A stretch of 46,132 nucleotides of DNA, from positions 1 to 46,132 of the forward strand of contig JAOAEE010000009.1 of assembly GCA_026416955.1 (NCBI GenBank), read 5' to 3'. This DNA comes from Ignavibacteria bacterium (lineage in GTDB: Bacteria; Bacteroidota; Ignavibacteria; Kapaibacteriales; UBA2268). Position numbers and translations under genes: made by a program. Of this stretch, positions 31,562 through 46,132 are shown piece after piece (the stretch's first letter is position 1; the number at the start of each line of letters is the position of its first letter). The notes under the pieces are model-generated. The model saw nothing but the letters and a program-made list of their open reading frames with translations. It was not told where the DNA came from and did not search any database.

Positions 31562-33226
31562 CTACAAAACCGCCTTTAACTTTTGTATACCACCAGGTAA
31601 ATAACCCACCCTATCTACACCTAAATGTTTTAGCATAATAGCAACTTCGAGCGAACGCTGACCCTTCTGGCAAACACAAAGAATGCTTTCCTTTAAAGGA
31701 ATTTTCCACAATTCATTCTGAATATTGTCGTAATCTATGTGTAAACAACTAAATTCTAAAGGCATTTTTTGCAATTCGCTATCTCTTCTTAAGTCTATCA
31801 CGACCCAATTACTTAAACTTTCTAAAAAGACATCAGAAGAAATAGGGATAACATCAAACATTTCTTGATTTTGAATAATTCCACCCAAATAATTCAAGGG
31901 ATTAATTGGAGAAGAATGTGGGGGAGTGTATGAGTGCTCAATGTTTAACAATTCTGAATAGTTTGCTTTTTTATCCAACAAGATTGAAAATACATCAATA
32001 TATCTTGTTATTTCTCCTTTGCCACAAATCTGTAATCCCAATAACCCTCCAGAAGATTTTTCATAAAGAATTTTGGCAAACAATACATTTGATTCTGGAA
32101 AATAGTGGGCTCTATCGTAAAAGGAACCTTCCGCAAAATTGAAATCCAAACCATTATCTTTACAACCATTAATATTTAATCCAGTAACCCCAAAAATGAC
32201 ATCAAAAATTTTCAAAGAAATGCTCCCAACAGCACCAACAAATTTGCTTGGTATGCCAATAATATTCTCGGCAACAACTCGCCCTTGACGATTCGCTAAT
32301 GAGCCAAGTGGAAAAATCTCGGGTTTGCCAGTCACTAAATTCTTTGTTTGAATACAATCCCCCGCTGCAAAAATATTTTCAAAATTTGTTCTTAAGTTTT
32401 GGTCGACTAATATTCCACCTGTTTCCCCAAGTTGAACCCCAGAATTTCGCGCCAATTCAACATTTGGTATTACTCCAAGAGCAAGAAAAACAAAATCTGA
32501 AAAGAAAGCACCTTTATCTGTTTCTACTTTTATCGAATTTCCATCCCTAGACACTTGTTCGACATTTACACCTAACTTTACATCAATGCCATTCCTTTTA
32601 AAAATATTTTCGAGCAATTTAGAAAAATCTGAGTCAAAATACCGAGATAAAAGGAAATTTTCCTTTTCCAAGATAGTAGATTTTATCCCCCATAAAGAAC
32701 TGACAGAATAAGCAAGCTCACAACCAACGAAACCACCACCAATAATCATAGCATTTTCAATTTTCCCTCTTTCTGCCAAATGGCGAAAATTTTTTGCATC
32801 TAAAGGAGAATGAAAATACGATATTCTTTCGGAATTATCTACGGGAAACTTTGGTTTAATCGGTTTCGACCCAGTTGCAATTACAAGATAATCGTAATCC
32901 AAAGTGGCTTGTTTCCCGTAATGATCTAAAATTTCGACTTGATTTTTCGTTGGAAGAATTTTTGTACAAGTTGTTTCTACTAGAACTTTAATTTTCTTAG
33001 CATTCCAAAAAAATTCTGGGGAACGAAGTGTCCCCCAAGAAGTAGTCATTAAATCTTCAAAATTGTCAATTTCTCCACCAATAAAAAAAGGCATACCACA
33101 AGCACCAAAAGATACAATTGGGAGTTGTTCAAGAATAATGATTTCAACTTCGGAGTTCAATCGTCGAAGCCGCGAAGCTACTTTGCACCCCGCCGCCATT
33201 CCTCCAATTATTACTACTCTTTTCAT
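31562..33226 (-). CDS. CoA-disulfide reductase/NADH oxidase-like flavoprotein fused to rhodanese
   Basis: 554 aa. FAD-binding IIGGMAAGCKVASRL (about 6-20), redox Cys43 in FGACGMPFFIGG, NAD(P)H-binding MIIGGGFVGCELA (about 160), second FAD motif NIFAAGDC (about 283-290) and the dimerisation domain (about 330-440) define a single-cysteine pyridine-nucleotide disulfide oxidoreductase of the CoA-disulfide-reductase/NADH-oxidase/persulfide-reductase group. The last ~100 residues are a rhodanese domain with active Cys519 in VCQKGQRS. In relatives with this fusion (CoADR-RHD), the pair reduces CoA disulfide, CoA persulfide or polysulfide. It is the first gene of a unit with hemA. The substrate is inferred from the family. 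Confidence 0.9.
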   Translation of the reverse strand: MKRVVIIGGMAAGCKVASRLRRLNSEVEIIILEQLPIVSFGACGMPFFIGGEIDNFEDLMTTSWGTLRSPEFFWNAKKIKVLVETTCTKILPTKNQVEILDHYGKQATLDYDYLVIATGSKPIKPKFPVDNSERISYFHSPLDAKNFRHLAERGKIENAMIIGGGFVGCELAYSVSSLWGIKSTILEKENFLLSRYFDSDFSKLLENIFKRNGIDVKLGVNVEQVSRDGNSIKVETDKGAFFSDFVFLALGVIPNVELARNSGVQLGETGGILVDQNLRTNFENIFAAGDCIQTKNLVTGKPEIFPLGSLANRQGRVVAENIIGIPSKFVGAVGSISLKIFDVIFGVTGLNINGCKDNGLDFNFAEGSFYDRAHYFPESNVLFAKILYEKSSGGLLGLQICGKGEITRYIDVFSILLDKKANYSELLNIEHSYTPPHSSPINPLNYLGGIIQNQEMFDVIPISSDVFLESLSNWVVIDLRRDSELQKMPLEFSCLHIDYDNIQNELWKIPLKESILCVCQKGQRSLEVAIMLKHLGVDRVGYLPGGIQKLKAVL

Positions 33227-33397: not shown

Positions 33398-34924
33398 ATG
33401 GTGAAAATGAAGAAGTTAATAATTTTACTTTTAACTTTAATAAGTTACAATAGTGTATCGAAAATTAGACTTCCAGAAATAATAAACGAATACCAACCTG
33501 CATTACTCCCTATCATATCTCCTAATGGAGATGAATTGTTTTTCAGTAGAAAATGGCATCCAGAAAACACTGGTGGAATTAGCGATGACGATGACGTATG
33601 GGTATCGATACGAAAAAGCAACAATGAATGGAATAAACCAGTTAAGCTAGAAGAAACTATTAATAAACCGACTAGTAATTCTTTGCTATACATTTTCCCA
33701 GATGGTAATAAAGTCCTACTTTCGGGGGAATACTATAAGAAAGAGGCTCAACTTGCAATAACACAGATAAACGTAAATTACTTTGCAATAGCGAAAAGAA
33801 TAAATGGAAAATGGCAAAAACCAGAACCTTTGTTCATCGAAGATTTTTATAACAAAAGCAAAAACTATTCTGCAACAATTTCGACCGATGGGAAAGTTTT
33901 AATTATGAGTTTGCAAAGAGAAGATTCTTTTGGTTCATTAGATTTATATATTTCTTTTTACAATCCAGAAACTAAAACTTTTTCTAAACCAGCCAATCTT
34001 GGTAACAAAATCAACTCCAAAGGTGTAGAAATTGCTTGTTTCTTAGCATACGACAGTAAAACATTATATTTTGCAAGCAATGGAAGGAATGGCAAAGGAA
34101 AATTCGATTTATACCTTACTCGTAGGTTAGACGATACTTGGGGAAATTGGTCGGACCCCATACCTTTGGATTTTATCAACAGCCAATGGGACGAAAACTC
34201 TTTATCATTAAACTTAACTGGTGATACAGCATATTTTACAAGTGGCGATAGTATTTCCGGACGTGAAGGAATATATTTCGCTGTTTTACCTAACGAGTTT
34301 AGACCTTTACCATATTTGGTAATTCAAGGGGAAATTCTTTCTGTTGATGGAAACTCAACTGCAAAAATTAATGTTCCTGCTGCTTTCAAAATAGATAATT
34401 TTGAAACAGATTATGTTTTCTACGATACAGTTTATAATAGTAATTACAGATTTGTTGTACCAAACAATACACAATACAACTTTTTTGTATCTGCAAAAAA
34501 TTACAATGATTATTCTTTTTCTACATCATCATCAAAATTTGTAGAACCAGCAATTCAAAACTACAACATTACTCTTAGAAGAATTAAGGAGAACAAAACT
34601 TTTATTGGTCGAATATACTTCGAAACAGATAAAGACTCTTTGAACAAAAAATCTTTTATTAGATTAAAAAAACTTATCGAGAAAATAAATCAAGAAAAAC
34701 TTTCCAAGATACTTGTTGTTGGGCATACAGATGAACTTGGGACCGAGGAATATAATCTTCAACTTTCAATAAGAAGAGCCGAAAACACTGCAAAAGTAAT
34801 TAAATCGATTCTTAATCTTCCCGATGATATTTTCGAAATTCAAGGGAAAGGCAAAAGTGAACCTATTTCAAGAGATTTTTCCAAAAATCGAAGAGTAGAA
34901 ATTTATCTTGTTGGTTATGAGTAA
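33398..34924 (+). CDS. OmpA-family protein with PD40-like beta-propeller
   Basis: 508 aa (505 if ATG 33407, MKKLIILL, is used). Signal peptide about 1-22. Residues about 28-310 carry repeated propeller blades of the PD40/TolB-like type (PIISPNGDELFFSR, SATISTDGKVLIMS, CFLAYDSKTLYFASNGRNGKG, NLTGDTAYFTSGD). Then comes a beta-sandwich-like linker (about 312-400) and an OmpA C-terminal domain (about 403-508) with GHTDELGTEEYNLQLSIRRA, which should bind peptidoglycan. The layout (propeller, sandwich, OmpA) resembles PorE of the type IX secretion system but lacks the PorE TPR part and lipobox. Its last 8 bp overlap the next gene, so the products likely work together. Confidence 0.85.
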   Translation: MVKMKKLIILLLTLISYNSVSKIRLPEIINEYQPALLPIISPNGDELFFSRKWHPENTGGISDDDDVWVSIRKSNNEWNKPVKLEETINKPTSNSLLYIFPDGNKVLLSGEYYKKEAQLAITQINVNYFAIAKRINGKWQKPEPLFIEDFYNKSKNYSATISTDGKVLIMSLQREDSFGSLDLYISFYNPETKTFSKPANLGNKINSKGVEIACFLAYDSKTLYFASNGRNGKGKFDLYLTRRLDDTWGNWSDPIPLDFINSQWDENSLSLNLTGDTAYFTSGDSISGREGIYFAVLPNEFRPLPYLVIQGEILSVDGNSTAKINVPAAFKIDNFETDYVFYDTVYNSNYRFVVPNNTQYNFFVSAKNYNDYSFSTSSSKFVEPAIQNYNITLRRIKENKTFIGRIYFETDKDSLNKKSFIRLKKLIEKINQEKLSKILVVGHTDELGTEEYNLQLSIRRAENTAKVIKSILNLPDDIFEIQGKGKSEPISRDFSKNRRVEIYLVGYE

Positions 34925-36629
34925 GTTTTTTTATTTATTCTTCTCTTTTTTCTTTTTTTCGAATATCAATGCCTATTGCTTAAAACCTATTGATTACGTT
35001 GTTATTCCTAAGATAGAAATATTAAAACTTAATTCATATCAACGTGTAAAAATTGAATTCGACAAAAAGTACGAAAAAGGAACACTAATCGTTAAAAGAA
35101 AAAAACTTTTTGAAGATGACTGGCAAAAAATCGACACTGTTCCCCCCAAAAATTCAATCTATTCAGATACACTTAATCAAAAAGACTATTTCGAGTATGG
35201 TTTTTTCTATTTTTCTGATACACTAAATGCCTTCGGCTATTACATAATTGGAAATAAAGAGGAAATAGAAACATACCAAGGAAATATTTTGATTTTAATT
35301 GATTCAACAATTGCTGAAAGTATTGCAAACGATTTTCAAATGTTTACTTCCGATTTAGTGTCGGACGGTTGGTATGTTGAAACAAGAAAAGTCCCACGTT
35401 GCGAAGGTTTTAATCCTATTGAAGTCAATAAAGTGAAACGAATTGTCAACTCATTCAAGAGGCGTTGGAAAGACAAATTTAAAGTTCTTCTAATTGTTGG
35501 TAGAGTTCCTGTCCCTTACACTGGAAATTATACATTCGATGGTCATTCCGACCATTTTGGTGCGTTTCCATCCGATTTAGTTTACGTAGTTGATGATTCA
35601 TTGTTGACAGACGAAATTGAGTACAATCTAACCGCCACAAGGGAAGAAAATTGGAATGTCCCATTCGACTATAAATTCGACCAAATCACACTCCCAAAAA
35701 ATATTTCTATTGCTATTGGTAGAATTGATTTTTCGAATTTGAATTTCTTTAATAGCAACGAAAAAGAACTACTCTCGAACTATTTTAAGAAAAACCATCT
35801 TTTTAGGATTGGTAAAACAAAGATAAATCTTTGCGGATTAATTGATGATGGTTTTGGAACACAAAGTGATGAAATTTTCTCTTCTAATGCTTGGATGAAC
35901 TTTTTTCCTATTTGCGATTCTATAGTAGAAGGTAATATGTTAAATCACGTTAATAAAAACTATTATCACTTTTCCTATGCTTGTAATTCTGGTTCATATA
36001 CATCTGTTTGGTCTTCAATTAACTCAGAGGACTGTGCAAGAAATAACATCTTCTCGACTTTTGTATTTCTTTTTGGCTCTTACTTTTGGGATTGGGATAC
36101 TAAGAACAATTTACTTAGGTCAGTAGTAGCATCATCACCAAATGTTCTATTAGCATCCTGGATTGGAAGACCCTTTTGGCATTTCCACCATTTAGCATTT
36201 GGTTTACCATTTTATTGGTCTTACATTGCTACTGCAAATAACCAATCATTGTATCAAACCACTGGTAAATATGGTTATAAAGGTATGCATATTGAAACAA
36301 TTGGCGACCCCACATTAAGAATCGTTTATCCTAAACCAATCGATAGTTTAGAAGTGTTCACCCACCCTTCAAGGAAAATTTGTATAAAATGGTTAAATAA
36401 CAATATTCAAGATAATTTGATTGGATATCAAATATCAAGAAAAAGAAATAATGAATTTCCTTTTAAAGAAATTGCTTTTGTTGGAAAAGAAATGGAAACC
36501 TTTTGCGAGGACTTTCCCGGACCTGGAACATATCTCTATCAAGTGAATGCAATATATTTAATAAAGAATAAATTTGGAACTTACTTTGCCCGAAGCATAG
36601 GAATTATTAGAGAAGTGGAAATCAAATGA
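34917..36629 (+). CDS. Secreted gingipain-like (C25-type) protein with FN3-like tail, uncharacterised
   Basis: 570 aa from ATG 34917, which overlaps the upstream stop codon; an in-frame ATG at 34908 is the alternative. Signal peptide about 1-19. The central part resembles clan CD/C25 proteins: LLIVGRVPVPYTG with DGHSDHFGAFPSD (about 192-222), SYACNSGSYTS (about 355-365) with a candidate nucleophile Cys, GSYFWDWDT, GRPFWHFHH (about 418-426) and the closing IGDPTLRIV (about 464). I recall this motif set from uncharacterised secreted proteins of several phyla. The usual catalytic GHG of gingipains is not evident, so activity is uncertain. Residues about 475-570 form an FN3-like domain. No T9SS sorting domain is seen. 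Confidence 0.72.
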   Translation: MSKFFYLFFSFFFFSNINAYCLKPIDYVVIPKIEILKLNSYQRVKIEFDKKYEKGTLIVKRKKLFEDDWQKIDTVPPKNSIYSDTLNQKDYFEYGFFYFSDTLNAFGYYIIGNKEEIETYQGNILILIDSTIAESIANDFQMFTSDLVSDGWYVETRKVPRCEGFNPIEVNKVKRIVNSFKRRWKDKFKVLLIVGRVPVPYTGNYTFDGHSDHFGAFPSDLVYVVDDSLLTDEIEYNLTATREENWNVPFDYKFDQITLPKNISIAIGRIDFSNLNFFNSNEKELLSNYFKKNHLFRIGKTKINLCGLIDDGFGTQSDEIFSSNAWMNFFPICDSIVEGNMLNHVNKNYYHFSYACNSGSYTSVWSSINSEDCARNNIFSTFVFLFGSYFWDWDTKNNLLRSVVASSPNVLLASWIGRPFWHFHHLAFGLPFYWSYIATANNQSLYQTTGKYGYKGMHIETIGDPTLRIVYPKPIDSLEVFTHPSRKICIKWLNNNIQDNLIGYQISRKRNNEFPFKEIAFVGKEMETFCEDFPGPGTYLYQVNAIYLIKNKFGTYFARSIGIIREVEIK

Positions 36630-36713: not shown

Positions 36714-39700
36714 ATGACAAGAGAAAAGATGATTAAGTATTTTTTTGGAATACTTGCATTTCTAATAACTTTAATAGTTTATACTCTGACTGTGCAACCA
36801 TCCGTACCGCTTTGGGATTGTGGAGAGTTCTCTGCTGCAACAATTTGGCAACAAGTTCCCCACCCTCCCGGTGCCCCACTATTCTTGATGATAGGTAAAG
36901 TGTTCCACATTTTACTACCTTTTGGGGACCCCGGATGGAGTGTCAATATGGTAAGTGTTTTTTCCACTGCTTTTTTTGTTTTTCTTCTTTACTTAATAAT
37001 AATAAAGGTCATCCAAAATTTTCGAGGTAAAGAATTAAACAAACTTTCCGATGAATTAATGGTTTATGGTTCTGCCTTTGTTGGAGCTATGGCATTTGCA
37101 TTTTGCGACACGGTTTGGTTCAATGGGGTTGAAAGCGAAGTTTATGCTATGTCTCAACTCTTCACCACACTTGTTGTTTATTTTATGATGCTATGGAATG
37201 AAAAGGCCGACGAACCGGGTAGCGAAAAATATCTTTTGATAATGTTTTACCTTATTGGTCTTTCTATTGGAGTTCACCTTTTGGCAATTCTTACTATCTT
37301 TTCTATCTTTTTAACTGTTTATTTTCGTAAATACGAATTTAGCATCAAGTCTTTCATAGTAATGACTGTTCTTGCTGTAATTAGTTTCTTTGTTGTCTAC
37401 AAAGTAATACTAATGTGGATTCCGGGTTTACTTGCTGGCAATTTCCCAATCAAAACAGAGGCAAGAGAATATCCACTTGAAAACAATTTTCTAATGACCC
37501 TCTTGGGAATTCTTCTTATTTTTGGCGGAGTTGCATACTATATTTGGGCTGCAAAAAGAAAGAAACCACTTTTGCAACTTGTTTTAGCATCCTACCTTTT
37601 AATCTTTTTTGGTTTTACTACTTATACGCATATTCTAATTCGTTCAAATGCAAACCCACCAATGAACGAAAACGAACCAAAAAACTTAAAGAAACTTATT
37701 GCATACCTTGGACGTGAACAATATGGTGAACAAGTTCTGTGGCCAAGAAGAACTGATTATAATGATGAACTTAAAATCTATTACTACAATCTTAAAGATG
37801 AAAATGGAAATTATGTTTACGGGGAATGGAATCCGCCGGGAACAAAAGAAGTAATGAGAAAGGATGGTACTATTATTAGCGTACCAATTTGGGATAATGT
37901 TAACTTTGCTGGCGAACTCGCTTATTTATGGAAATATCAAATTGACCATATGTATTTACGCTATTTCTTCTGGAACTTTGTCGGAAGAGAAAGTGATGTA
38001 CAAGATGCACAAGAGGCTTGGTTCGCCGACGGCTCACAACCTATTAACTACAAAAATGGATATGCCGATAAATTCCCTATTAAGTTTTTTGCACTACCTC
38101 TACTTTTTGGAATTTTAGGCCTTTACTACCATTTCAAACGCGACCCCAAAATGGGTTTTGTATTCCTTGCTATGTTCTTGTTTATGGGTGTTCTTGCTGC
38201 TATTGCACAAAATCAACAAAATCCACAACCAAGAGAAAGAGACTATTTCTACACTGGTTCATTTATGGTTTGGTGCCTTTGGATAGGATTAGGCACATAT
38301 TATTTAATTGAATTAGTTAATAAGAAAAAAGAAACTACAATATTAACAGCATTAGCCCTTATTATTTCTATACTCCTCGTACCATTCAATATGTTGATTG
38401 GAGGCTGGAAAACTCACACTCGAGCAAACAATTATTTCCCATTTGACTACTCGTACAACATTCTACAGAGCTTAGAAAAAGATGCTATCGTATTCACAAA
38501 CGGGGACAACGATACATTTCCACTTTGGTTCTTGCAAGATGTAGCGGGTGTCCGACGTGATGTTAGAATAGTTAACCTAAGTTTAGGTCAAACCCTCTGG
38601 TACATCGACCAACTTAAAAATAGAGAACCTTGGGGTGCAAAGAAAATCCCATTAAGTTTCACCGACGAGCAATTACATACAACCGAAGACGACCCAAAAG
38701 CACTTTCTTACGAGTTTGGTGAAGCAAAAGAAATCAAAATACCAGTAAAAAAGGAAATTCTTGCCCAATATACAGACGACACCTCATTGATAAACAAAGG
38801 CTATATGGAATTCACATTTGTTGGGAAAAAGTATACCGAAAGAAATGGTAAACCAATTTACATCTTCTTTGTCAATAATAAACTTATTCTCGATATACTT
38901 CAACAAACCCGTTTCGAAAGGCCAGTTTATTTTTCAACAACTTGTGGTTCCGACGTGTTTTCTGGACTTGGAAGGCATCTTCGTATGGAAGGAATGGCTT
39001 GGAGAGTTTGCCCAGTCCCTCAAAATTCATTAAAAACTGGAATGATGGATGAAGAAATAATGGACAAATGCCTACTACAAATCGACAATTCCAATAATTT
39101 CTTCAAAGAACCTCGTAATGGGTTCAAATTAAGAAATCTTGACGGAAAAGGTAAATATGTTTATTATGACGAGGTTCACAGAAGAATGATACAAAGTTAC
39201 CGACAAATTTATATGAACTATGCTGGTTTTTTAATTGAACAAAAAAAGGATAAGCAAAAAGCTGCAAGAGTACTCGATACTATGAATAAGTATATTTCCC
39301 CAAAACTCTTTCCAATGTATTACGACGAAGAATATCAAATGTCCCTTATTTACAAAGAGGCTGGCGAAATGGACAAAGCCAAATTCTGGGCAACAAATGC
39401 TATTAAAACTTGTAAAGAAATCATAGACAATCCAAAACTTCGCCGATTTCGCTACGACGACATTCGAGAGGAAATTCGTGGAAGAACTGGTCCATACAAA
39501 GTTGCTTCTGCTTCCTACGCTTTGCTTGGTGACTACACTTCCGCAAGAAATAGTCTATTAAAACTTTACGACCTTGTATTTACAGCAATTCAAACTCGAC
39601 AAATAGAAAATATGGAAATCGACGAAAATTCTGTTCGGAACAACCTTTACGATATACTTGGTAATATTATGTACCTTGATGAACAGCAAGTAAACGAGCT

Positions 39701-39869
39701 AATTAAGTCGAATCGTAAAGAAGAAGCCCAAAAACTTGCCGACAGCCTCATTGCAAGTTACAAAAAAGGTAACGACCCTCTGATGCAATCCTTTGCTTCT
39801 ACTGTCGAGACAAAATTGAAATCTTTGATTTCAGGCAAAGAAATCATAGACACCGTTACCGGGAACTAA
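36714..39869 (+). CDS. DUF2723/GT117 membrane protein O-mannosyltransferase-like
   Basis: 1051 aa. The N-terminal half is a multi-helix membrane domain (about ten helices to residue 570). Its first periplasmic loop has the DUF2723 signature LWDCGEFSAATIW then PHPPGAPLF (about 33-56), followed by FNGVESEVYAMSQLF (about 140). Then comes a long soluble part: ITNGDNDTFPLWFLQ-like (FTNGDNDTFPLWF, about 599) and helical TPR-like repeats at about 865-1040 (MSLIYKEAGEMDKAKFWATN). The family is placed with GT117 and is thought to transfer sugar from a lipid carrier to protein, consistent with O-glycosylation of exported proteins in Bacteroidota. It stands alone between two terminators. Acceptor and sugar are unknown. 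Confidence 0.87.
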   Translation: MTREKMIKYFFGILAFLITLIVYTLTVQPSVPLWDCGEFSAATIWQQVPHPPGAPLFLMIGKVFHILLPFGDPGWSVNMVSVFSTAFFVFLLYLIIIKVIQNFRGKELNKLSDELMVYGSAFVGAMAFAFCDTVWFNGVESEVYAMSQLFTTLVVYFMMLWNEKADEPGSEKYLLIMFYLIGLSIGVHLLAILTIFSIFLTVYFRKYEFSIKSFIVMTVLAVISFFVVYKVILMWIPGLLAGNFPIKTEAREYPLENNFLMTLLGILLIFGGVAYYIWAAKRKKPLLQLVLASYLLIFFGFTTYTHILIRSNANPPMNENEPKNLKKLIAYLGREQYGEQVLWPRRTDYNDELKIYYYNLKDENGNYVYGEWNPPGTKEVMRKDGTIISVPIWDNVNFAGELAYLWKYQIDHMYLRYFFWNFVGRESDVQDAQEAWFADGSQPINYKNGYADKFPIKFFALPLLFGILGLYYHFKRDPKMGFVFLAMFLFMGVLAAIAQNQQNPQPRERDYFYTGSFMVWCLWIGLGTYYLIELVNKKKETTILTALALIISILLVPFNMLIGGWKTHTRANNYFPFDYSYNILQSLEKDAIVFTNGDNDTFPLWFLQDVAGVRRDVRIVNLSLGQTLWYIDQLKNREPWGAKKIPLSFTDEQLHTTEDDPKALSYEFGEAKEIKIPVKKEILAQYTDDTSLINKGYMEFTFVGKKYTERNGKPIYIFFVNNKLILDILQQTRFERPVYFSTTCGSDVFSGLGRHLRMEGMAWRVCPVPQNSLKTGMMDEEIMDKCLLQIDNSNNFFKEPRNGFKLRNLDGKGKYVYYDEVHRRMIQSYRQIYMNYAGFLIEQKKDKQKAARVLDTMNKYISPKLFPMYYDEEYQMSLIYKEAGEMDKAKFWATNAIKTCKEIIDNPKLRRFRYDDIREEIRGRTGPYKVASASYALLGDYTSARNSLLKLYDLVFTAIQTRQIENMEIDENSVRNNLYDILGNIMYLDEQQVNELIKSNRKEEAQKLADSLIASYKKGNDPLMQSFASTVETKLKSLISGKEIIDTVTGN

Positions 39870-40003: not shown

Positions 40004-40648
40004 ATGCCGAAAGAAGATACTTTGGAAAAAGAACCTAAAGAACGTATTCTCGAGGCTGGCGCATTGCTTTTCGCAACCAAAGGATACGCCGCAGTTGGAG
40101 TTAGAGAAATTGCCGAACTTGCTGGGGTCAATGTGGCAATGATTTCATACTATTTCTCTGGAAAGGCTGGCATACTGAAAGAGATAATTTTAAGATATTT
40201 CGACGAAGTAAAAGGAATTTACGACAAGGTACTTGCTCAAAATATAGAACCAGAAATAGCACTAAAAACAATTGTCAAAGAACTTGTTAATTTGATGAAG
40301 AAAAAAACTATCTTTTGCAAGGTTGCAATAACAGAAATGCCTTTCAACCTTCCAGAATTTATGGAATTCAAAGCAGAAGTTGCTCGCCGTCACATTGATT
40401 ATATTAAACAAGGACTTCAATTAATCAAACTTTTCGTAGATGATAACCGATATAATTCAATAATCACCCCGGCAGCAATTTCCTTAATCTTTTCTCACTT
40501 TCTTTTCGGTCCATTTATTCAAAAAGTTTGGAATGTTGAATTAGATGAAAATTATTATAATCTTTATTCCGAAACTATCTCTACCCTTTTACTCGAAGGG
40601 TTGACTGGACTAATTAAAAAGTTGAATAATAAGGGAGAAACCAAATGA
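40004..40648 (+). CDS. TetR/AcrR-family repressor of the efflux operon
   Basis: 214 aa. N-terminal TetR helix-turn-helix: ERILEAGALLFATKGYAAVG (about 13-32), VREIAELAGVNVAMISYYF (about 33-51) and GKAGILKEI. The C-terminal helical domain (about 70-210) would bind the inducing ligand and make the dimer. It is the first gene of the TolC/MFP/RND operon and overlaps the TolC-like gene by 4 bp, so it regulates its own operon, most likely by repression at the paired operator 18-64 bp upstream. GAGGAG 6 nt before the ATG is a strong ribosome binding site. The ligand is unknown. Confidence 0.94.
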   Translation: MPKEDTLEKEPKERILEAGALLFATKGYAAVGVREIAELAGVNVAMISYYFSGKAGILKEIILRYFDEVKGIYDKVLAQNIEPEIALKTIVKELVNLMKKKTIFCKVAITEMPFNLPEFMEFKAEVARRHIDYIKQGLQLIKLFVDDNRYNSIITPAAISLIFSHFLFGPFIQKVWNVELDENYYNLYSETISTLLLEGLTGLIKKLNNKGETK

Positions 40649-41961
40649 AAAACAAAATCTTGTTATCTATTCTATTGGTACCGATTTATTTGTTTTCTCA
40701 AAATTATGATTACACTTTATCGTTAAAAGATGCCGTACACCTTGCTTTACAAAATTCAAAGAATCTAAAAATTGCTGAATCCAAAGTTGTATCCGCAGAA
40801 GCAAAAACCAAAGAAACAAACACCCAGCTTTATCCGACCTTGAAGCTTACATCGGGCTACACAAGGCTTAGCCAAGTTGTTCCATTCAAAATTAATTTTC
40901 AAGGCCGAGAATTCGAAATTTCCCCAACAATCCTAAATAATTACCAAATCCGGCTTGGAATTCAATATCCAATTTTCACTGGTTTCCGATTAGAAAACAC
41001 GTCATCAATGATGGAATTGAACGCACAAGCTTCGAAACAAGATTTAGAATCGGAAAGAACAAAAGTAATTTTTGATGTTCAAACCCTTTATTGGACAATA
41101 AAAAACTTAGAAGCAACATTAAAAAGCATCCAAGAAAATATTCGGCAAGTTCAGTCTCACCTAAATGATATTCAAAATTTTTACAAAGCTGGACTAGCAA
41201 CAGAAAATGAAGTTCTTAAAGTTAAAGTCCAACTTTCAAATTTAGAACTTGCAAAAATAGATATAGAAAACGCAATAAAAATAAATAAAATAAATCTTTG
41301 CATAGTAACTGGATTGCCTACAACTGCGAATTTAATCTTAACCTCGGAACCAAATAAAGAAACCAAAGAATATCCCGATTTACTGCAATTACTAAACATT
41401 GCATATAAGAACAGACCAGAACTAAAAGCATTAGAATTACGAAAAGAAGCAAGTAAAAAGTCCATTGAAGTTGCTAAAAGTGGTTGGTTCCCACAAATCC
41501 TTTTTGGTGCAAACTATTATTACAACAGACCAAACCAACGATTAATGCCTTTGCAAGATAAATTCTATGGTACCTGGGATTTGGGAATTACTCTTTCTTA
41601 TGATATTTGGAACTGGATGTCAACAAAATATCAAACTCAACAAGCAGAAGCAAATTACTACCAAACCGACTTATCAATTCAACAGTTAAAAGATGGTATT
41701 ACTCTCGAAGTTTCGCAAAATTACTATGCATATCTTAGAGCAAAAGAAAAAATAAAGGTTGCAATCGAAGCAGTCGAACAGGCAGAAGAAAATTATCGGG
41801 TAACTTACGAAAAATTCAAAAATGGATTAATTACAAGTTCTGAACTTTTAGACGCAGAAGTTGCACTTCTTAATTCAAAAATCTCCTATAACAATTCGCT
41901 TCTAGAATTGGAAATCACTAAAGCTAAATTGGAAAAATCAATTAATTATGTTGAACAATAA
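40645..41961 (+). CDS. TolC-family outer-membrane efflux protein
   Basis: 438 aa. Signal peptide about 1-19 (ending LFSQ). Two outer-membrane-efflux repeats of long helices with intervening strands: first half about 25-220 (LSLKDAVHLALQNSKNLKIAESKVV), second half about 240-430 (RPELKALELRKEASKKSIEVAKSG, SYDIWNW). It forms the trimeric outer-membrane channel of the tripartite pump with the following adaptor and RND genes. No lipobox is present. Its ATG overlaps the TetR stop (ATGA). Confidence 0.93.
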   Translation: MKNKILLSILLVPIYLFSQNYDYTLSLKDAVHLALQNSKNLKIAESKVVSAEAKTKETNTQLYPTLKLTSGYTRLSQVVPFKINFQGREFEISPTILNNYQIRLGIQYPIFTGFRLENTSSMMELNAQASKQDLESERTKVIFDVQTLYWTIKNLEATLKSIQENIRQVQSHLNDIQNFYKAGLATENEVLKVKVQLSNLELAKIDIENAIKINKINLCIVTGLPTTANLILTSEPNKETKEYPDLLQLLNIAYKNRPELKALELRKEASKKSIEVAKSGWFPQILFGANYYYNRPNQRLMPLQDKFYGTWDLGITLSYDIWNWMSTKYQTQQAEANYYQTDLSIQQLKDGITLEVSQNYYAYLRAKEKIKVAIEAVEQAEENYRVTYEKFKNGLITSSELLDAEVALLNSKISYNNSLLELEITKAKLEKSINYVEQ

Positions 41962-41973
41962 AAGGATTGAGCA

Positions 41974-43038
41974 ATGAAAGGCACAAAGAAAAAAATCACA
42001 ATATTTGCAATTATCCTATTAGCACTTCTTTCGATAGGTTTACTTTTCAACAACAGAAACAAAAATATTGCAAAATCAAAGAAAATTACAATTTTGACAA
42101 CATTCCCAGTATATGTCCACAAAGCAAGTTTCGAAGATATGGATATTAACCTTGAATATAACGGCACTGTATTACCCAATTCAGAACTAAACATTGCTTC
42201 GGAGACAAACGGAAAAGTTGTTGGTGTTTTTGCAAGCTTGGGGAATTTCGTAAAAAAAGGCACCATTCTTGTAAAGTTAGACGACAGAATTCGGTTGGCA
42301 AATCTTCAAACTGCAAAGTCTAATTACGAAAAGACTAAGAAAGATTTGGAACGCTACGAAAAGCTTTTCAAAGAAAACTCTATAAGCGAAACACAATTAG
42401 AAATGGCAAGATTTCAATTTACTAACGCCGAGGCACAATATGCTATTGCAACTAAACAATTGGAGGAAACAAAAATTTCTGCACCTTTTTCGGGTTTTGT
42501 ATCTGCTAAAATGGTCGAAGTTGGCCAAGTCGTATCTCCCGGAACTCCATTACTTACCCTAATTGACATCGGAACAGTAAAAATCCGTTTCCAAGTTCCT
42601 GAAAAAGACATTTTCAAAATCAAAATTGGGGATGTTGTCGAAGTTTCGACCGACTTACTTCCTAATCAGAAATTTTATGGCAAGGTTCATAATATTGGTT
42701 TCAAAGCAGACGAAGCAAAAACTTACCCAGTAGAAGTGGATGTAAAAAATCCAAAGAACCTTCTAAAAGCTGGGATGTTTGTCCAAGTGAGAATTCCCTC
42801 AGCTATGCGAGTTAAAGCTTTGCTAATCCCAAGAGTTGCATTATTTGGTAGTAAATTAGACCCCAAAGTCTATGTTGTCGAGAATAATATCGCAAAAATT
42901 AGACCAATTACTTTAGGAGGTGAATTTGGTGACAAAATTGAAGTAATTAAAGGACTAAAAGAAGGCGAATTGATTATTACCGAAGGGTTAATAAACCTAA
43001 AAGATGGAACACCTGTAAATATTGTCGAACAAAAGTGA
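41974..43038 (+). CDS. RND efflux adaptor (membrane fusion protein)
   Basis: 354 aa. One N-terminal membrane anchor (about 7-25), a beta-barrel/lipoyl part (about 60-110, NSELNIASETNGKVVGVFASLGNFVKKG), a short helical hairpin (about 110-165), the second lipoyl half (KISAPFSGFVSAKMVEVGQVV, about 167-187), then barrel and membrane-proximal domains (LIPRVALFG, about 286). It bridges the inner-membrane RND pump and the TolC channel. The hairpin is short compared with AcrA. It lies 12 nt after the TolC-like gene and 8 nt before the pump gene. Confidence 0.94.
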   Translation: MKGTKKKITIFAIILLALLSIGLLFNNRNKNIAKSKKITILTTFPVYVHKASFEDMDINLEYNGTVLPNSELNIASETNGKVVGVFASLGNFVKKGTILVKLDDRIRLANLQTAKSNYEKTKKDLERYEKLFKENSISETQLEMARFQFTNAEAQYAIATKQLEETKISAPFSGFVSAKMVEVGQVVSPGTPLLTLIDIGTVKIRFQVPEKDIFKIKIGDVVEVSTDLLPNQKFYGKVHNIGFKADEAKTYPVEVDVKNPKNLLKAGMFVQVRIPSAMRVKALLIPRVALFGSKLDPKVYVVENNIAKIRPITLGGEFGDKIEVIKGLKEGELIITEGLINLKDGTPVNIVEQK

Positions 43039-43046
43039 GGGTTAAA

Positions 43047-46000
43047 ATGACCATTACAGAACTTGCAATAAAAAGGCCAACATTAGTTGTTGTAGTTTTT
43101 TCGGTGCTTGGTATTTTGGGGATTTATGGCTTTGCCCAACTCAATTATGAACTTATGCCAAAACTAACTGCACCCGTTATTACAATTCAAACAATTTATC
43201 CCGGTGCCTCTCCTTTCGAAGTTCAAAACAACGTTACAAAACTAATCGAAGACGCTATTACTGGAATGGAATTAATTTCCAATATTCGCTCTTCTTCTCG
43301 CGAGGGTGTCTCCTTCATATTTGTCGAGCTCGAAATGTCCGCCGATGTTGACAAATCCATTCAGGATGCTCTAAGACGTATAAATCAAGTTCAAGACCTA
43401 TTGCCAAAAGACGCAAGAAAACCAGTTGTATCGAAAATTGCATTCGACGAAGTCCCCGTAATTCGTGCAAATATACAAAGCAAACTCGATTCAAAAGAAC
43501 TAACACAATTCGTAAAAGATAATATTCTTCCGTTGATATCGAAATTAAAAGGAGTTGGTCTAATACAAATATTGGGAGCCAACGAAAGAGAAATTTCTGT
43601 TTCTATTGATATGCAAAAATTAAAAGCTTATGGATTATCTCTAAATACTATTACCCAATCAATAATTTCGTCCAATATTGATTTTCCCACTGGTAGCGTT
43701 AAAGAAATCGATAATCAATACGTTGTCCGTGTTGCTGGAAAATTTAACTCCATCGAGGAACTCGAAAACCATATTATTGGAAGAACAAAATCTGGAGGTG
43801 AAATTCGATTAAAGGACATTGCAAATGTTCAAGATGGAATTAAAGAAATCACAAACATAAATAGGTTGAATTTTAACCCATCAATTGGTATTCTTATACA
43901 AAAACAAACAGATGCCAATACTGTAGAAGTTAGCAAGCTTGTTCGTAAGGAATTTTCAAGATTAGAAAAAGAATATTCAGACATTGGACTAAAATTCGAA
44001 ATAGCCCAAGATAACTCAACTTTTATTATGGAAGCTGCAAATGCAGTGAAAAAAGACCTTGCTCTTGCTGTATTAATTGTTGCTTTTGTTATGTTTGTTT
44101 TTCTCCACAGTATTCGAAACTCTTTAATTGTTCTTGTTTCTATTCCAACTTCCTTAATTACAACTTTCTTTTTAATGTACATATTTAATTTCACATTAAA
44201 TACAATAACTCTATTGGCAATGTCGCTCGTAATCGGAATTTTAGTGGACGATTCCATAGTTGTAATCGAAAACATTACTCGACATTTGGAAAAAGGCGAG
44301 GACAAAATTACCGCAGCTATTCGGGGAAGAAACGAAATTGGTTTCGCTGCTTTATCAATCACTTTGGTAGATGTCGTTGTGTTCTTTCCCCTATCCTTAA
44401 TTACTGGAATGATTGGAACATTCCTACGCCAATATGCTCTGGTGGTCGTTTTTTCTACCCTAATGAGTTTGTTTGTTTCTTTCACTGTTACTCCTTGGCT
44501 TGCATCAAGAATCTCGAAAGTAGAAGCAAAGGAATCCAAAGGTTTTCTTAAATCATTCAGTAAGTTTATTGATAAGGTTTATCAAAAACTCGAACAATAC
44601 TATGTCGAGGTCCTTGGTTGGGCTTTAAATAACGGTGGGAAAGTTTTTATCGTGGCTACCATCATTTTCATAAGTTCATTAATGCTCCCCGGACTTGGGT
44701 TCATTGGAACTGAATTTATTCCAAATGTAGACCGTGGAGAAATCATTTTTACCATTGAAACAGAACCTGGTTCAACCATTGAAAAAACAAACCAACTATC
44801 CATCCAAGTAGAAAACTTACTTCGTCAACAACCCGAAGTTGTTAAAATTGTTTCTAATGTAGGTTTTACAAGCGAAGGAATTCTTGGACAGTTTCAACCC
44901 AATACTTCTCAAATCCTTGTCCAACTAGTAGATAAAAATCAAAGAAATATCTCGACTGATGAATTTGCACAGCTAATGAAAGAAAAAATCAATACTATAC
45001 CCGGAATAAAAATAAAGGCACAACCAATCACACTTCTTGGTACAACTGGTCGGACACCAATCCAAATCCGCGTTAGCGGACCAGATTATCAAAGCGTCTT
45101 CAAAGGAGCAGAAATTGTCGACAGCGTAGTTAGGACCGTTAGAGGAGCAACAGATGTGAGTTTGTCCAGCGAACAAGGAAATCCTGAACTCCGTGTTGAA
45201 ATCGACCGCAACAGACTTGCACAATTTGGCTTGTCTATCTTCGACGTATCTTCTGCTCTAAGAATAGCACTCACTGGTAACGACGATTCAAAATTTACTG
45301 AAGAAAAAAACGACATTCCAATTCGTATACAATTAGAGAAATTCGACCGTTACAATGTTGAAGATGTCCAAAATATTCCATTCACAAATCGCGAAGGGAA
45401 AACAATCCTATTAAAACAATTTGCGAACGTTTACCAATCCATCGGACCAACCAAACTTGAGCGGGAAAACCGTGCTCCTTGCGTTTACGTAAATTCAATG
45501 ATTTTTGGACGCGCAAGTGGCGATGTCAGCAACGACATTGCAAAAAAATTAAAGGAGGTTAAACTTCCACCAGGTGTCGATTATGCTTTTGTGGGCGAGC
45601 AAAAATCAATGAGAGATTCTTTTCAAAGTTTGCTCACAGCGATTATTATCGGAACAATATTTGTTTACTTAATTCTTGTTGCCCTCTACAATTCATACCT
45701 TTATCCTTTTGTAATAATGTTTTCTATTCCACTTGCGGCAATAGGAGCATTCTATGGCTTAGCATTCACAATGAAAACGATTAGTCTTTATTCGATTCTT
45801 GGGATGATTACAATTATTGGTTTGGTCGCTAAAAACGGCATACTATTAGTCGATAGAACAAATTATATGAAGTTCGAAATGGGTTATCCAACACGACAAG
45901 CACTTCTCGATGCAGCAAAAGTTCGACTTCGTCCTATTCTTATGACTACATTTGCAATGGTATTTGGAATGATGCCGATTGCATTGGCAAGCTCCGCCGG

Positions 46001-46132
46001 GTCTGAAGCAAAATCGGGACTTGCTGTGGTTATAATTGGTGGTTTGCTCAGCTCTTTGTTCCTTACCTTAATCGTTGTTCCCGTTGTCTACCAAAAATTC
46101 GACAAATGGCGCGAGGCATTCCACAGAATACT
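43047..46132 (+). CDS. RND-family efflux pump, 3' end beyond window
   Basis: 1028 complete codons are open from ATG 43047 (ribosome binding site GAGGG) to the window edge; no stop is reached, but the last helix is already present, so only a short tail is missing. AcrB/HAE-type layout: N-terminal TM1 (LAIKRPTLVVVVFSVLGILG), pore and docking domains, helices 2-6 (about 335-480), second periplasmic part (about 560-860), helices 8-12. Proton-relay residues are intact: Asp401-Asp402 in GILVDDSIVVIEN (TM4) and Lys929 in GLVAKNGILLVD (TM10). It uses the proton gradient to expel drugs, bile-like compounds or lipids via the TolC channel. The HAE group fits best; the substrate is unknown. Confidence 0.95.
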   Translation, partial: MTITELAIKRPTLVVVVFSVLGILGIYGFAQLNYELMPKLTAPVITIQTIYPGASPFEVQNNVTKLIEDAITGMELISNIRSSSREGVSFIFVELEMSADVDKSIQDALRRINQVQDLLPKDARKPVVSKIAFDEVPVIRANIQSKLDSKELTQFVKDNILPLISKLKGVGLIQILGANEREISVSIDMQKLKAYGLSLNTITQSIISSNIDFPTGSVKEIDNQYVVRVAGKFNSIEELENHIIGRTKSGGEIRLKDIANVQDGIKEITNINRLNFNPSIGILIQKQTDANTVEVSKLVRKEFSRLEKEYSDIGLKFEIAQDNSTFIMEAANAVKKDLALAVLIVAFVMFVFLHSIRNSLIVLVSIPTSLITTFFLMYIFNFTLNTITLLAMSLVIGILVDDSIVVIENITRHLEKGEDKITAAIRGRNEIGFAALSITLVDVVVFFPLSLITGMIGTFLRQYALVVVFSTLMSLFVSFTVTPWLASRISKVEAKESKGFLKSFSKFIDKVYQKLEQYYVEVLGWALNNGGKVFIVATIIFISSLMLPGLGFIGTEFIPNVDRGEIIFTIETEPGSTIEKTNQLSIQVENLLRQQPEVVKIVSNVGFTSEGILGQFQPNTSQILVQLVDKNQRNISTDEFAQLMKEKINTIPGIKIKAQPITLLGTTGRTPIQIRVSGPDYQSVFKGAEIVDSVVRTVRGATDVSLSSEQGNPELRVEIDRNRLAQFGLSIFDVSSALRIALTGNDDSKFTEEKNDIPIRIQLEKFDRYNVEDVQNIPFTNREGKTILLKQFANVYQSIGPTKLERENRAPCVYVNSMIFGRASGDVSNDIAKKLKEVKLPPGVDYAFVGEQKSMRDSFQSLLTAIIIGTIFVYLILVALYNSYLYPFVIMFSIPLAAIGAFYGLAFTMKTISLYSILGMITIIGLVAKNGILLVDRTNYMKFEMGYPTRQALLDAAKVRLRPILMTTFAMVFGMMPIALASSAGSEAKSGLAVVIIGGLLSSLFLTLIVVPVVYQKFDKWREAFHRI

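Follow-up and report, generated by a model that had tools for sequence, protein, structure and literature searches.

Two overlapping genes in an Ignavibacteria bacterium raise the question whether their products belong to the type IX secretion system (T9SS), parts of which both resemble, or form an envelope device of their own. They lie in the window analysed here, i.e., the whole of contig JAOAEE010000009.1 (C27 in our numbering; 46,132 bases) of a 2.49-Mb genome. The first gene encodes a PorE-like propeller/OmpA protein (protein 1), and the second a protein with the predicted fold of the C25 peptidases (protein 2). The initial annotation of this DNA saw in them either a T9SS side branch, by analogy to PorE and PorU, or a distinct surface-processing device. 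The reading that we favour, and to which we give about an even chance, is an envelope module peculiar to the genus: a C25-fold protein devoid of the catalytic His-Cys dyad would reside in the periplasm, next to a partner that would bind peptidoglycan.

The overlapping gene pair

The two open reading frames (ORFs) and their overlap are:
33398..34924, + strand: PorE-like ORF1, 508 aa
34917..36629, + strand: C25-fold ORF2, 570 aa counted from the ATG at 34917
34917..34924, + strand: overlap of the gene pair, ATGAGTAA, 8 bp, kept across the genus

ORF2, which stops at 36629, has an alternative TTG start at 34908 that would lengthen the overlap in the window to 17 bp; we prefer the ATG at 34917, which is consistent with the orthologues in the genus. 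The 8-bp overlap reported initially is thus borne out, and the two genes overlap in all five genomes of the genus examined (by 8, 8, 4, 8, and 8 bp, with the window gene counted from its ATG). The pair is not a chance arrangement because its orthologues, at 46-57% identity, occur in the four other genomes of the genus examined.

Protein 2 has a gingipain-like fold

The layout of protein 2 is:
signal peptide; N-terminal beta domain, ca. 30-115; C25 domain, ca. 120-470; C-terminal fn3/Ig-like domain, ca. 471-570

By itself, protein 2 has no match in Pfam or NCBIfam at E<=1 or among PDB sequences at E<=10, and a related-locus search with its sequence alone returned no loci. Its AlphaFold model, built on a 63-row alignment of the family, has a pLDDT of 93.9 and a pTM of 0.92. 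Foldseek places this model with RgpB (E 1.1e-11); VIA-align places it with Kgp (4rbm, Z 25.9, 367 residues aligned, rmsd 4.8), RgpB (4ief_D, Z 25.2, 362 aligned, rmsd 4.7), and latent PorU (6za2, Z 12.5, 234 aligned), the other entries among the best 50 listed mostly matching the fn3-like C-terminal domain with Z at or below 13.6. Since Foldseek and VIA-align match RgpB and Kgp, a fold unrelated to C25 can be set aside, and the clan CD fold proposed initially is supported by structure prediction: judged by its model, protein 2 is a gingipain-like C25 domain followed by an Ig-like domain. The likeness to the gingipains RgpB and Kgp (MEROPS C25, clan CD) resides in the predicted fold of the catalytic and Ig-like domains; identity is 10-14%, and protein 2 lacks both GHG and a detected sorting domain. 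In C25 peptidases the catalytic His is described as having a Gly before it (PMC12445089).

A relative of protein 2 occurs in 47 of the 60 genomes searched (E<=0.01), and a motif-based scan of named genomes confirmed at least 533 relatives among 589 stretches. The 80 family loci retained come from records of Bacteroidota, the Kapabacteria/Ignavibacteria/Chlorobi group, and Verrucomicrobiota, and the rows are mostly 645-770 aa long. From the 63-row set, 19 of 81 rows were left out, namely 14 of at least 763 aa (one 771-aa row was retained) and five others; residue counts given over 82 rows include these 19, which were counted apart. PF01364 (Peptidase_C25) was found in 15 of the 63 rows at E<=0.01, protein 2 not being one of them, and its gathering score of 23 was passed by two relatives (24.4 and 27.1 bits) among eight proteins scanned. 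Searched against PDB with hmmsearch, the 63-row profile matched mostly fn3 and sorting domains, with no gingipain among the best 60 of 69 matches. No Pfam or NCBIfam model specific to the family was found in the scans made, and neither a dyad-less C25 family nor this gene pair was found in the literature searched, which was largely open-access. What is already known, therefore, is the fold; what is new is a dyad-less family for which we found no name in those scans or that literature, together with its re-routing and pairing in one genus.

Some relatives depart from this general picture. In two records, labelled Pedosphaera and Bacteroidia MAG (L065:3542-10156 and L069:4701-11438), the family domain apparently sits within long multi-domain frames of 2205 and 2246 aa. 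Five relatives (L055, L068, L073, L081, and L086) come from Verrucomicrobiota-labelled records, outside the usual T9SS phylum; the three of them that entered the tree cluster with a protein from Hymenobacter (97/98).

The catalytic dyad is broken

The candidate active-site stretches, with codons numbered from the ATG at 34917, are:
35982..35993, + strand: codons 356-359 (C-N-S-G), end of strand 350-356; His site in register R1, Cys site in register R2
36075..36098, + strand: codons 387-394 (G-S-Y-F-W-D-W-D), after strand 380-386; Cys site in register R1

As the initial annotation had it, the ORF2 translation contains VGRVPVPYTG, ACNSGSYTS, SYFWDWD, GRPFWHFHH, and GDPTLR, and GHG is absent from it. 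In an active C25 peptidase the nucleophilic Cys ends the strand that follows the His strand. Protein 2 can be aligned with the peptidases in two registers: R1 puts the His site at 356-358 and the Cys site at S388, and R2 takes C356 as the Cys and leaves no His. Counted over the 63-row set, no row has a His at residues 353-360 (the His site of R1), and no column within 296-351 (the His site of R2) has His in more than 10% of the rows except column 298 (7/63). A conserved catalytic His is thus missing in either register; in the control, the PorU-like proteins retain His239 and Cys274 in 20/20. The canonical dyad accordingly appears broken throughout the aligned family, for which reason protein 2 is best taken as a non-peptidase homologue, in keeping with the divergent or non-proteolytic clan CD fold suggested at the outset.

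The conserved Cys fares less well as a catalytic residue. Position 356 holds a Cys in 71 of the 82 rows and another residue in the remaining 11 (Thr in five, Ser in two, Ala in two, Phe in one, and Asn in one), and the register of this Cys is uncertain. As the 80 loci were found via two motifs, one of them containing GSYxxDWD, the counts carry a selection bias; however, the GS..D loop is present in every one of the 50 rows (out of 81) that match the other motif, and 38 distinct family matches from genomes of the same order were found without a motif filter. Among these 38, C356 is kept in 33 and replaced in five (Ser in two, Asn in two, and Gly in one). C356 was consequently rejected as a universal catalytic Cys. 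S388, D392, H210, H213, D251, K253, D255, and R269 are constant in 82/82 rows and H458 is found in 76/82; these nine residues and G387 are unchanged in 38/38 motif-free matches.

In the model, six strands (306-311, 335-338, 350-356, 380-386, 412-415, and 461-463) follow one another with a helix between each and the next, and with more than one helix before the last. This arrangement matches the six-strand order of clan CD, the order of the gingipains, only with 350-356 as the His strand. Profile alignments were divided. With PorU-like-only profiles (60 runs), S388 fell on the Cys in 26, C356 in 16, and neither in 18; with 20 more C25 proteins in the C25 profile (40 runs), C356 fell on the Cys in 33 and S388 in none, four runs paired the His with 356 or 358 and the Cys with F384, and three gave neither outcome. 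Segment 333-368 gave the top score against the Cys unit of a second C25 group (17.4 and 14.8, with the template's other cells at or below 12.0), and CNSG resembles that group's motif, which also favours R2. Segment 370-402 reached its highest scores (10.0 and 11.3) with the PorU-like Cys unit, and segment 400-432 scored 16.0 against the combined-template His unit, in an order that both registers disallow; these scores are noisy. The hhalign probabilities were low (15% and 36%), with E-values of 0.0017 and of 8e-6 to 0.12, compared to 2.1e-56 in the control alignment of the PorU-like set with the second C25 group. On balance we lean towards R1 over R2, since R2 needs strand-helix units deleted and others inserted; this is our own judgement, with the gingipain topology as its basis.

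The second C25 group consists of longer proteins (L160 at G000:C68:13241-14293, G000 being the window genome, and L161-L176; frames of ca. 1660-2020 aa) with SCN/SCQ-type Cys motifs. Most of the 24 genomes considered have such a protein in addition to the PorU-like one.

Loss of the sorting domain within a T9SS-bearing genus

Most other family members examined look, by their sequences, like T9SS type A cargo: Por_Secre_tail (PF18962) is present in 52 of the 63 rows. Protein 2 differs from them in that no sorting domain (TIGR04183/PF18962) was matched at E<=1, the model ends after the fn3-like domain, and the following gene begins 84 bp on. Equally short proteins (570-576 aa) occur in all five genomes of the genus examined. 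They form one clade (100/100) nested inside rows that bear the C-terminal sorting domain (CTD), with G008a (100/90), then G022a (99/88) and G024a (96/90), as its neighbours in the tree. Because the short-protein clade sits inside CTD-bearing proteins, the loss is derived. Nor is it a loss of the secretion system, since the window genome retains a CTD-bearing paralogue of 711 aa (G000:C76) next to a T9SS with SprA and a PorU-like protein. This paralogue and the other CTD-bearing relatives share with protein 2 the C25-like and fn3/Ig-like domains and the conserved residues; they mostly carry a T9SS type A sorting domain and are not beside a PorE-like gene in the loci fetched. Of 44 positions that hardly vary across 35 other rows, 38 are unchanged in every one of the five short proteins.

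Three additional short proteins (G027, G070, and G019), from two other genera, fall elsewhere in the tree, so the CTD was lost at least twice; the evidence for two losses is the branching around G008a, G022a, and G024a, and the group test covers grouped rows only. For G019 the absence of a CTD was read from the length and the end of the protein, and G027 and G070 were also scanned with NCBIfam without a match at E<=0.001. The CTD-less relatives are listed here:
L154:4895-6625: CTD-less C25-fold relative, 576 aa, Asn at the C356 position
L155:5246-6976: CTD-less C25-fold relative, 576 aa, Asn at the C356 position
L156:2722-4518: CTD-less C25-fold relative, 598 aa

The T9SS is retained in these genomes. 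The PorU-like gene of the window genome (G000:C54) is a 1338-aa frame in which GHG is present. SprA was found in this genome and in 24/24 overall, and a C25 protein over the cut-off likewise in 24/24, with a PorU-like protein in most (G005 has the second, longer group only). The window genome also encodes two longer PorE-like proteins, of 672 aa (197.5 bits) and 680 aa (236.6 bits), both below the NF052230 cut-off of 600. T9SS sorting tails occur in 60/60 relatives' genomes; the window genome gave 80 tail matches, 80 of its 127 candidates having been scored. PorU-type sortases are described as multi-domain proteins with a Cys/His dyad and a CTD of their own (PMC10202324). The PorU-like proteins of these genomes match 6za2 PorU by profile (E 2.1e-63), have frames of ca. 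1300-1470 aa where uncut by a contig end, and carry His239 and Cys274. With PorU, protein 2 has the C25 domain in common, the colinear profile alignment ending at a shared GDPT; at 570 aa, with no sorting domain detected and no conserved His, it differs from a PorU-type sortase on each count. Its secretion by the T9SS, as implied initially, is disfavoured by the lack of the sorting domain that most relatives have, and the periplasm is the more likely location.

Protein 1 and the reach of the pairing

The layout of protein 1 is:
signal peptide without lipobox; beta-propeller, ca. 20-303; beta-sandwich, ca. 306-395 (position of the PorE CRD); OmpA_C-like peptidoglycan-binding domain, ca. 404-508

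The PorE-like domains of ORF1 were recognised correctly in the initial annotation: Pfam finds PD40 (E 1.7e-8) and OmpA (PF00691, E 4.1e-15), and the top NCBIfam match is T9SS_PorE (NF052230), at 121.7 bits versus a cut-off of 600 and over profile positions 169-599 of 648. PorE itself is described as lipidated at its N-terminal Cys and composed of TPR, propeller, CRD, and OmpA_C domains (PMC7192894). Protein 1 shares the order from propeller to OmpA_C and lacks two other PorE hallmarks: the N-terminal TPR domain was not found, as the profile match begins at 169 and the propeller starts near residue 20, and no lipobox, by the usual rule, was found in the N-termini of the five PorE-like proteins of the genus, two of which have no Cys and three a Cys inside the hydrophobic stretch after Leu/Ile. 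Protein 1 is thus a TPR-less, non-lipoprotein relative of PorE. Its AlphaFold model is of low to moderate confidence (pLDDT 71.3, four-sequence alignment); compared by structure, the propeller region of this model reaches Z 18 to GH43/GH130-type proteins, which we take to be five-bladed propellers. By analogy to other OmpA_C domains, protein 1 should attach to peptidoglycan; D445 and R460, which do not vary in the four-row alignment, are presumably the diaminopimelate (DAP)-binding residues. Relatives of protein 1, paralogues counted, occur in 60/60 genomes searched (E<=1e-20), the closest outside the genus showing 33-43% identity among the matches listed.

The survey of gene pairs upholds the link between PorE-like and C25-like genes in the genus (5/5 genomes), and did not encounter it elsewhere among the loci examined. 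A PorE-like gene was found in the flanks of three of the 80 named family loci, all three being loci of the genus orthologues, and in none of the 77 others, among them the paralogue locus of a genus genome (L100). Conversely, none of ten PorE-like loci outside the genus (L121-L129 and L132), i.e., those with the best protein 1 relatives among the matches listed, has a C25-like gene beside it; one of them, L129 (G029), is a short locus whose PorE-like match has two internal stops. The neighbours scanned at these loci include recA, recX, hrcA, a sigma-54 regulator gene, and an EPSP synthase gene; no T9SS gene was seen among them.

Functions open to the pair

In the envelope module that we favour, the product of gene 1 (propeller, beta-sandwich, and OmpA_C) would be held on peptidoglycan, and protein 2, its sorting domain lost in the genus, would stay in the periplasm after Sec export. 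For both proteins a periplasmic location is suggested by the Sec signal, with no sorting domain and no lipobox found. The overlap would bring about coupled translation and hence, we infer, a complex. The likeliest role of protein 2 would then be that of a ligand- or protein-binding partner that the propeller/OmpA protein keeps close to the wall, binding via the conserved loops at the edge of its former active site. Several points weigh against this proposal. The interaction, the location, and the ligand of the pair are predictions from sequences and models, and the protein 1 model has a pLDDT of only 71. The active-site register is unsettled, the choice between S388 and C356 varying with the profile. 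At 0.78 changes per column, the genus clade has a long stem, which relaxed constraint would explain as well. Loss of the CTD and pairing with a PorE-like gene are not generally tied, as the short proteins of G027, G070, and G019 have no PorE-like gene in their fetched flanks. Lastly, the window species has no match to the GT4 glycosyltransferase gene that precedes the pair in its sister species.

A more far-reaching version is a tentative possibility. The dyad of the family may have been rewritten, with GHG turned into a GCG-like motif and the Cys into the invariant Ser of the GSYxGDWD loop, for a new, non-proteolytic surface chemistry or recognition; one Kapabacteria genus would have re-routed its copy to the periplasm and coupled it to a peptidoglycan-bound propeller protein.

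It is also conceivable, though rather unlikely, that the family members are enzymes whose active site has been rebuilt, with S388 (or C356, in those that have it) serving as nucleophile or with the chemistry relying on Asp/His, so that a hydrolase or transferase would operate on a gingipain fold. Candidate residues are H210, H213, D220, D251, K253, D255, R269, D392, and H458. The polar invariance of the residues counted above (38/38 motif-free matches; 82/82 rows for eight residues, with H458 in 76) suggests a functional pocket, and the conserved loops come after strands 188-194, 350-356, 380-386, and 412-415 of the model. This must be set against the lack of a conserved His at either candidate His site. 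Moreover, H74 and D76, invariant in the GDGHYD motif of the PorU-like proteins, align to D208-H210, so part of the conserved set looks structural and common to C25 proteins at large.

Less probable still is a loose operon without partnership, in which a CTD-less C25-like protein drifts in the periplasm and is co-translated with its neighbour by chance. Loss of the CTD without pairing, as seen in the other two genera, would fit such a scenario, as would the greater divergence of the short genus proteins, whose tip branches measure 0.22-0.39 versus 0.05-0.12 for the CTD-bearing paralogues of the same genomes. Its improbability stems from the overlap in 5/5 genomes, which persists in spite of changed surroundings in G003 (upstream genes) and G004 (genes on either side), and from the retention of 38 of the 44 near-invariant positions.

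We consider very improbable the T9SS side branch of the initial annotation, in which protein 2 would be a second PorU-type sortase or maturation protease anchored to the T9SS by the PorE-like protein: both proteins do resemble T9SS parts in a genome with a T9SS and many cargo proteins, but the catalytic His is not conserved, the PorU-like protein with its GHG, SprA, and the two longer PorE-like proteins are encoded elsewhere, and the pairing was confined to the genus among the loci examined even though T9SS tails occur in all 60 relatives.

It is easy to assume that a C25-like protein from a T9SS genome is a protease, and a large family whose examined rows show no conserved catalytic His would change the reading of T9SS secretomes. 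The genus, for its part, offers a testable event, in which a lineage of T9SS cargo shed its sorting signal, kept most of its conserved residues, and gained an operon partner that would bind the cell wall.

Neighbouring genes

One further feature borders the pair:
36714..39869, + strand: TMEM260-like protein O-mannosyltransferase (PF11028, by a scan confined to the window), 84 bp downstream of the C25-fold gene

A homologue of this gene follows the pair at 79-87% identity in G001-G003 and is absent there in G004, i.e., it is present in four of the five genomes. It may be co-transcribed with the pair; we do not count it in the module. Upstream, a GT4 glycosyltransferase gene precedes the pair in four of the five genomes, with a 4-bp overlap or 1 bp apart; in the window genome no GT4 match was found at E<=1e-20, and 171 bases separate the pair from the upstream gene. 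The GT4 gene in the sister species and the TMEM260-like gene thus frame the pair with glycosyltransferases, which hints weakly at glycan-related work in the envelope. A review (PMC12871550) refers to the O-glycosylation transferase of Bacteroidota as undiscovered.

The remaining neighbours are ordinary. At 31562-33226 the window encodes a pyridine-nucleotide disulphide oxidoreductase whose C-terminal stretch is rhodanese-like; its gene is conserved upstream of the operon in G001 and G002. Positions 40004-46130 hold an ordinary RND efflux operon with a TetR regulator, an outer-membrane efflux protein, a HlyD-type fusion protein, and an RND pump.

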